From assembly GCA_002842095.1 (NCBI GenBank), contig PHCB01000006.1:332044-396043 (forward strand): DNA of 64,000 bases, read 5' to 3'. Below, piece after piece: positions 15,203-35,242 of the stretch. Both the position numbers and the translations under genes were made by a program. This DNA comes from a candidate division BRC1 bacterium HGW-BRC1-1 (GTDB lineage: Bacteria > Sumerlaeota > Sumerlaeia > Sumerlaeales > Sumerlaeaceae). The notes beneath the pieces were generated by a model, which was not told the DNA's origin, searched no databases, and saw only the letters and a program-made list of their open reading frames with translations. Every line of letters begins with the position of its first letter. Position 1 is the first letter of the stretch.

Positions 15203-15433
15203 TAGTGCATTTTCGATTCAAATGATTACAGACTCGTGGTACGCTGAGATGTCGAATAGTGACCGCCCATCCCTGACGTCGGTGGCCACCACGGCCTCGC
15301 CCGGACACCCGATGCTACCACCACCCACTTGTTGGCGGATGGCAGCCCCGGTGAGACCGGTGTGCAACCGGTGTGCAACCGGTGTGCAAGCAGTGTGCAA
15401 GCAGTGTAATCGGCTCGCAGCGTGCTGCCCCAA
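15203..15433 (-). repeat. MITE-like element, copy A (5' part diverged)
   Basis: Read on the minus strand this matches the copies at 27734 and 34513 from CCGATT through the 11-bp minisatellite (TTGCACACCGG units) to TCTGTAATCATTTGAATCG and AAAATGCACTAATG. The 5' end with AGAGCGG is not recognisable. It fills most of the 423-bp gap between rnhA and the DinB-like gene. No gene is supported here, although one frame is open in all three copies. Confidence 0.8.
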
Positions 15434-27620: not shown

Positions 27621-27733
27621 TGCTGTCCATCCCCAACCGGGCTCGGTGCGGGGACGCCCGTGTAGGTTGTCGCTCGCAGCGCGGTTTTCTCGGCCCGGGT
27701 GAGGCAGCCACCTCGACCATTCCCTGGCGCGCA

Positions 27734-28122
27734 TTAGAGCGGTTTTGACGTAAGTATTGACAGCTCCCGCAATCTCGGATTAGTTGGAGCATTGGGTTAG
27801 GGGCGACTGTGCGTGCAGGGCAAGCTGGAGGCCGCGTGGAGGCCTGAGTCAGACCGCGGGGCAGATAATGGCTTGCCGATTGCGCGTCAGTTGCATCGCT
27901 TGCACACCGCTTGCACACCGGTTGCACACCGGTTGCCGTCCGCCAGCCAGTGGGCAAGTGGGAGGCGGTGGCATCGGGCGCCAGGGCGGGGCCGTGAGGG
28001 CCACCCAAGTCAGGGAGGGGCGGTCACAATTCGACATCCAAGCGCACCCAGAGTCTGTAGCCATTTGAGTCGAAAACGCTCTAATGCGGGATATGTCAGG
28101 ACCTAAACGAAAACCGCTCTAA
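27734..28122 (+). repeat. MITE-like element, copy B (best preserved ends)
   Basis: 389 bp bounded by a perfect 13-bp inverted repeat, TTAGAGCGGTTTT (27734-27746) and AAAACCGCTCTAA (28110-28122). A nested 12-bp perfect inverted repeat, CGCATTAGAGCG (27730-27741) and its complement (28077-28088), gives an alternative right end. The interior has an 11-bp minisatellite (TTGCACACCGG) near 27900-27935 and the conserved 3' part also found in copies A and C. It occupies most of the 650-bp gap between the HD-GYP and methyltransferase genes. No transposase is encoded. Confidence 0.85.
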
Positions 28123-34512: not shown

Positions 34513-34882
34513 TAGAGCGGTTTTGATGTAAGCATTAACAGATCCTGCAATCTCGAAATAGTTGAAGCATTGGGTTCGGGGCGACTGTGCGTGCAGGGCA
34601 AACTGGAGGCCGCATGCAAGCCTAAGGCAGACCGCTGATTAGATAATGGCTTGCCGATTGCGTGCCAGTTGCACCGCTTGCACACCGGTTGCACACCGGT
34701 TGCACACCGATCGCACGCCGGTCGCACCGGGGTTACCATCCGCCAGAAAGTGGGCAAGCGGGAGGCGGTGGGATCGGGCGCCCGGGCGATGGCGTGGGTG
34801 CCACCTACCGCAGGGATGGGCGGTCACAATTCGACATCCCAGCGCACCACGAGTCTGTAATCATTTGAATCGAAAACGCTCT
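34513..34882 (+). repeat. MITE-like element, copy C
   Basis: 370 bp from AGAGCGGTTTT (34513-34523) to CGAAAACGCTCT (34871-34882); these ends are imperfect inverted repeats. The interior matches copy B throughout, with expanded and degenerate 11-bp units near 34675-34730. It follows doxX by about 21 bp. Confidence 0.85.
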
Positions 34883-35149
34883 GGGCTGCGGCGGCGCATC
34901 CGTGGATGTGAGCGCGCTCGTGCGCTGATTCAAGGAAGCACCGGTCCGCGAGGTCGCCTACCACTTCTTGAAGATCCTTCGCGCCCGTGCACTCTGCTTC
35001 GCTCTTCGCCTTCGGCTTGCGGCTGCGTTCATGGGTGCCCGTGCGCAACCCGATTGCGCCTCCAGACGCCCGGTGAAGTTACTACTGCGCAGCGGTCTGG
35101 CCATGTAAGTTCCCATTCGCACCGCGGTTCGCTCGGCTTTAGAAAGCAC
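34883..35149. other. Spacer between MITE-like copy C and tRNA-Ser, no supported gene
   Basis: A minus-strand frame (34958-35149, up to 63 residues, ending RRRRAKQSARARRIFKKW) is open but begins at the tRNA's 3' end and has no recognisable family; I do not call it. Nothing else is seen. Confidence 0.4.

Positions 35150-35242
<93 letters not shown>

Follow-up and report, generated by a model that had tools for sequence, protein, structure and literature searches.

A dispersed, MITE-like repeat family with an internal minisatellite and a YTAR/TA insertion signature in a BRC1 bacterium genome

Three copies of a repeat, here called A, B and C, lie in the window, the whole 64-kb stretch of DNA analysed. 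That these copies are real, that they have an 11-bp TTGCACACCGG array in common and that they carry no transposase had been proposed in a sequence-only reading of the window, and all three points were borne out; two units of the array used as a query gave seven matches at three or fewer mismatches, with 0.00 expected. The same reading placed the similarity in a ~200-bp 3′ core. This description suits copy A, a piece of ~210 bp that keeps the minisatellite and the 3′ end, with TA at 15203–15204, but copies B (27735–28083) and C (34513–34883) match over their entire ~350 bp. The position of the right TA in copy C is occupied by TG (34882–34883). The features are as follows.

15203..15414, minus strand: copy A, a 5′-truncated piece of ~210 bp (C1:347237-347434 in the genome search)
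27735..27736, plus strand: TA at the left of copy B, presumably half of the target duplication, preceded by T27734 as Y (flank statistics, 30 copies)
27737..28081, plus strand: copy B of the putative MITE, full length (GAGCGGTTTTGACG...GAAAACGCTC), bounded by the alignment of 29 full copies and by self match
27898..27935, plus strand: 11-bp tandem array of copy B (GCTTGCACACC/GGTTGCACACC)
28082..28083, plus strand: TA at the right of copy B, with A28084 next to it as R (flank statistics)
28110..28122, plus strand: stray AAAACCGCTCTAA outside copy B, previously read as a right 13-bp arm
34513..34514, plus strand: left TA of copy C
34515..34881, plus strand: full-length copy C, with 82% identity to B (C1:366556-366925 in the genome search)

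When the assembly from which the window comes (3,768,617 bases in 34 contigs, 94.8% complete) was searched with copy B, ~40 whole or partial copies were found in the 3.77-Mb genome, about 30 of the 40 being near full length with 74–87% identity to the query. Boundaries were set where similarity stops in an alignment of 29 full copies. They define a unit of ~340–415 bp that runs from GAGCGGTTTTGAYGTAAGTGTTAACAGA to TCTGTAATCATTTGAATCGAAAACGCTC (in the aligned element, from GAGCGGTTTTGAYGTAAGTGTTAACAGATCC to GAGTCTGTAATCATTTGAATCGAAAACGCTC), with TA abutting each end. In the genome, both ends occurred only within units of ~340–420 bp, other than background-level matches and the stray arm beside copy B. 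The terminal inverted repeats are perfect over TAGAGCG and imperfect over ~28–30 bp: an ungapped comparison of the first 30 bases, counting the TA, gives 21 agreements, which none of 5000 shuffles equalled, while the inner 18 bp taken alone are marginal (p~0.05).

These ends differ from those first proposed for copy B. The arms of a perfect 13-bp inverted repeat, TTAGAGCGGTTTT and AAAACCGCTCTAA, are present (27734–27746 and 28110–28122), but as a terminal repeat of the element the pair is not supported, the right arm lying 27–39 bp past the 3′ end defined by the 29 aligned copies; its 15-base form, TTAGAGCGGTTTTCG, has no other genome match among the matches listed. The nested 12-bp pair, CGCATTAGAGCG/CGCTCTAATGCG, does contain the true terminal repeat (TAGAGCG...CGCTCTA), but the remainder of it consists of flanking target bases, which are absent from most other copies. 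The stray AAAACCGCTCTAA (reverse TTAGAGCGGTTTTCG) lies within the DNA that follows copy B (window 28084–28122), and a near match to it, AGCGCGGTTTT, is found at 27678–27688, ~50 bp upstream of the copy; the two may be what is left of an older element that copy B entered.

No reading frame is conserved between the consensus and the copies, and each copy has between two and eight array units when these are counted by a simple motif. We consider that the family is very probably one of MITEs, that is, non-autonomous DNA transposons. The suggestion that the window copies represent a MITE-like family with many members genome-wide thus held, with 40 matches, intergenic positions, mostly unrelated flanks, defined ends and a signature of TA duplication; an absence of further copies, or copies always within the same flanks, was looked for and did not occur. 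Minisatellite-bearing MITEs with IS5-like ends are already known, and the present family adds its own sequence to that kind.

Most copies are flanked by TA on both sides. A T or C precedes the left TA in 27 of 29 copies, and an A or G follows the right TA in all 29. Rejoining the flanks around one TA yielded TTAG 13 times, TTAA eight times, CTAA seven times, CTAG never and other sequences twice; YTAR is therefore present at 28 of 30 rejoined targets as compared with 19% of intergenic NTAN sites in the window (p 2.4e-18). CTAG is itself rare, at one of 245 intergenic NTAN sites, and its absence among the targets is in keeping with this. We read Y and R as target because they are mixed among copies, while bases of the element would be expected to be fixed. 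A fixed TA in a mixed Y/R context suggests insertion at YTAR with duplication of TA, which is the rule given for IS711 (PMC2266754); the target motif of IS5 has also been stated as YTAR (PMC10359306). A blind scan for duplications of 2–9 bp with free offsets gave no strong signal, and no relative carries the family, so that no empty site could be aligned. Several of the rejoined sites look palindromic (CGCAT-TA-ATGCG at copy B), and terminator hairpins were considered as the target, but this reading failed on a folding test: matched flanks folded no better than mismatched ones at five flank lengths (p 0.29–0.75), nor were they more symmetric.

According to a simple coding-score gene call, all copies are intergenic. 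Convergent intervals outnumber divergent ones by 14 to 5, a difference that is not significant alone; a convergent excess is as expected if promoter insertions were lost. Flanks are largely unrelated between copies, although a few pairs have short similar stretches, as would be anticipated if the repeat had spread by segmental duplication or recombination instead of transposition. These stretches, however, consist of other small repeats, a tRNA and coding sequence at differing distances from the copies (their nature was judged by eye), and the copies have sharp ends, each starting at its own YTAR. We regard such a spread as extremely unlikely.

The copies differ from the consensus by 5–15%, and even the two most alike differ by 6.6%, which indicates that those in the assembly are old. 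Identical copies of recent origin may have been collapsed where contigs end; both C16 and C21 start inside copies of the element. Singleton substitutions, which postdate insertion, are uniform along the element (chi2 p 0.14), while shared substitutions are clustered (p 3e-15). Even singletons together with clustered shared changes point to subfamilies from several source lineages, followed by neutral decay. The uniformity of singletons also bears on whether the repeats are functional structured RNAs, or regulatory repeats, under selection at gene ends. Their exclusively intergenic placement, the preponderance of convergent over divergent genes and a fold of the consensus that for one of its strands is somewhat better than that of shuffles (z −2.4) would be consistent with such a role. 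Against it, besides the evenly spread singletons, stand a covariation term of −0.13, with any double change in two of 68 pairs, folding of the other strand that is little better than that of shuffles (z −0.9) and the lack of any Rfam family matching the element. Selection for an RNA or regulatory function is, in our judgement, very improbable. We would give just as little weight to the idea that the GC-rich 11-bp array found inside every copy serves a conserved function, perhaps as a site bound by a protein of the host or by the transposase, and that activity depends on this iteron-like array in addition to the ends; were it true, this would be a new sort of MITE.

What moved the element? The element, GAGCGGTTTTGA...TCGAAAACGCTC, is without genes, and we propose that a transposase acting in trans would have recognized its imperfect terminal repeats of ~28 bp and placed it at YTAR sites, duplicating TA. 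The likeliest donor would be an IS5-family, IS427/IS711-like transposase, since lost from the genome or missing from the assembly. Intergenic copies would survive and decay neutrally to ~8% from the consensus, and the internal 11-bp array would slip between copies. The number of copies, their ends, the YTAR/TA signature, the intergenic placement, the lack of coding capacity, the even singletons and the lack of an autonomous copy in the assembly are observations, whereas transposition itself and the family of the transposase are the parts of this explanation that we infer; it is quite probable that the mover was IS5-like, and the explanation as a whole we hold to be probable.

The sequence-only reading had anticipated a full-length autonomous relative elsewhere in the genome. 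Ends shared with such an element would support the MITE reading but are not strictly needed for it. No autonomous element with these ends was found in the host genome or in relatives, but with an assembly that is 94.8% complete and broken at repeats, absence is not proof. The assembly has no PF13340 (DUF4096) transposase, which is of the IS5/IS427 type; its single PF01609/PF13586 (DDE_Tnp_1, DDE_Tnp_1_2) gene, at C2:89094-89516, has no such element ends. DUF4096 elements do occur in 12 of the 39 genomes of the class. Among those with readable ends, four (L080, L088, L090 and L097) have GG-type ends and TA on both sides, and three (L078, L082 and L091) have GAG-type ends (GAGCG, GAGCC) and a 3-bp TAA/TTA duplication. 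The present element resembles the PF13340 elements of the class in ends and target, but the match to any single subgroup is incomplete because those that start with GAGC duplicate 3 bp and not TA. Likewise, it has the YTAR/TA target of IS427/IS711-like members of IS5 but neither its own nor a partner transposase of that type; with no IS5-type transposase in the element and no PF13340 in the genome, it can be said to ‘work like’ IS427/IS711 and not to be a member.

The main rival is that the same MITE was mobilized by a transposase of the IS630/Tc1-mariner type. TA duplication is a hallmark of these enzymes, and Correia/NEMIS and RUP are IS630-type MITEs that duplicate TA. The genome also has one copy of an IS630-type (DDE_3) element, with TA on either side of it; it lies at the TA next to one copy of the family (L005). 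Nevertheless, this resident IS630 begins GTATTCTCTTGC/GTACTCCCTTGC and not GAGCGGTTTT, a CGTAAGT motif alone being common to the two, and the strict YTAR context is the signature of IS711/IS5. CTAG, the target usually cited for IS630, was used at none of 30 sites, but the genome as a whole has few such sites. An IS630-type mover is accordingly unlikely, and we favour one of the IS5 type.

The family appears confined to its host in the collections searched. A DNA search of 40 relatives gave no match, and when the 39 genomes of the class were searched with a sequence model built on the conserved 3′ end, the host genome was the sole positive. There was no match to an exact 19-mer in public genomes, to an exact 18-mer in viral contigs, or to the family in plasmids. 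Weak end matches in one genome (G006; L102 and L104) were rejected as not being the element, since the two show no similarity to each other past 19 bases.

Correia/NEMIS and RUP are short, high-copy, intergenic, TA-flanked bacterial MITEs, as in the present family; to our knowledge they are shorter, have different ends and lack an 11-bp array. The closest precedent is found in Porphyromonas gingivalis, whose BrickBuilt element is a MITE with a minisatellite and IS5-family-like ends (PMC4596501). It too is gene-less, dispersed and intergenic, with a variable-number minisatellite and ends that start with GAG (GAGACCTTTGCA). In contrast to the present family, its minisatellite unit is 23 bp and not 11 bp, its terminal sequence past GAG is different, its duplications vary (CT, GAAA, AAAAA) where ours are regularly TA at YTAR, and its host has IS elements with matching ends, while none to match the present family was found in its genome. 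The likeness to IS711/IS6501 of Brucella (PMC2266754) lies in the target rule, namely a YTAR target with TA duplication; IS711/IS6501 is an insertion sequence that is autonomous and encodes a transposase, which the present element lacks. The family adds a lineage-specific, minisatellite-bearing MITE to a sparsely sampled group (40 genomes of the phylum in the collection searched), and its consensus ends and YTAR/TA rule provide a handle for tracing the lost transposase. Its main use lies in annotating its own genome and in explaining where that assembly breaks, and no new mechanism is implied.

Several other features lie near copies of the family. The sole IS630-type (DDE_3) insertion sequence (L069:~972-2059, at the end of G000:C30) stops exactly at the TA bordering copy L005, whose left flank is G000:C16:120467-120836; the ends of C30 and C16 overlap there, which suggests that the IS630 used the TA at the element's own border as its insertion site. 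A tRNA gene (Rfam RF00005; window 35153–35242, minus strand) is ~270 bp from copy C. A small palindromic dispersed repeat, GTAGGGGYGAACCTRTGTGTTCGCCC, occurs in the left flank of L026 and the right flank of L030, and a short repeat around ACATCTGCG..CATCTGCGCCATCTGTGGAT is found at 7–74 in the right flank of L003 and at 64–131 in that of L008. Finally, a 44-bp repeat (GCGCCGGTCCCACACTTGACCGG...) lies on both sides of L025, at 1245–1288 in the left flank and 193–236 in the right, the two being ~91% alike and at unequal distances from the copy.
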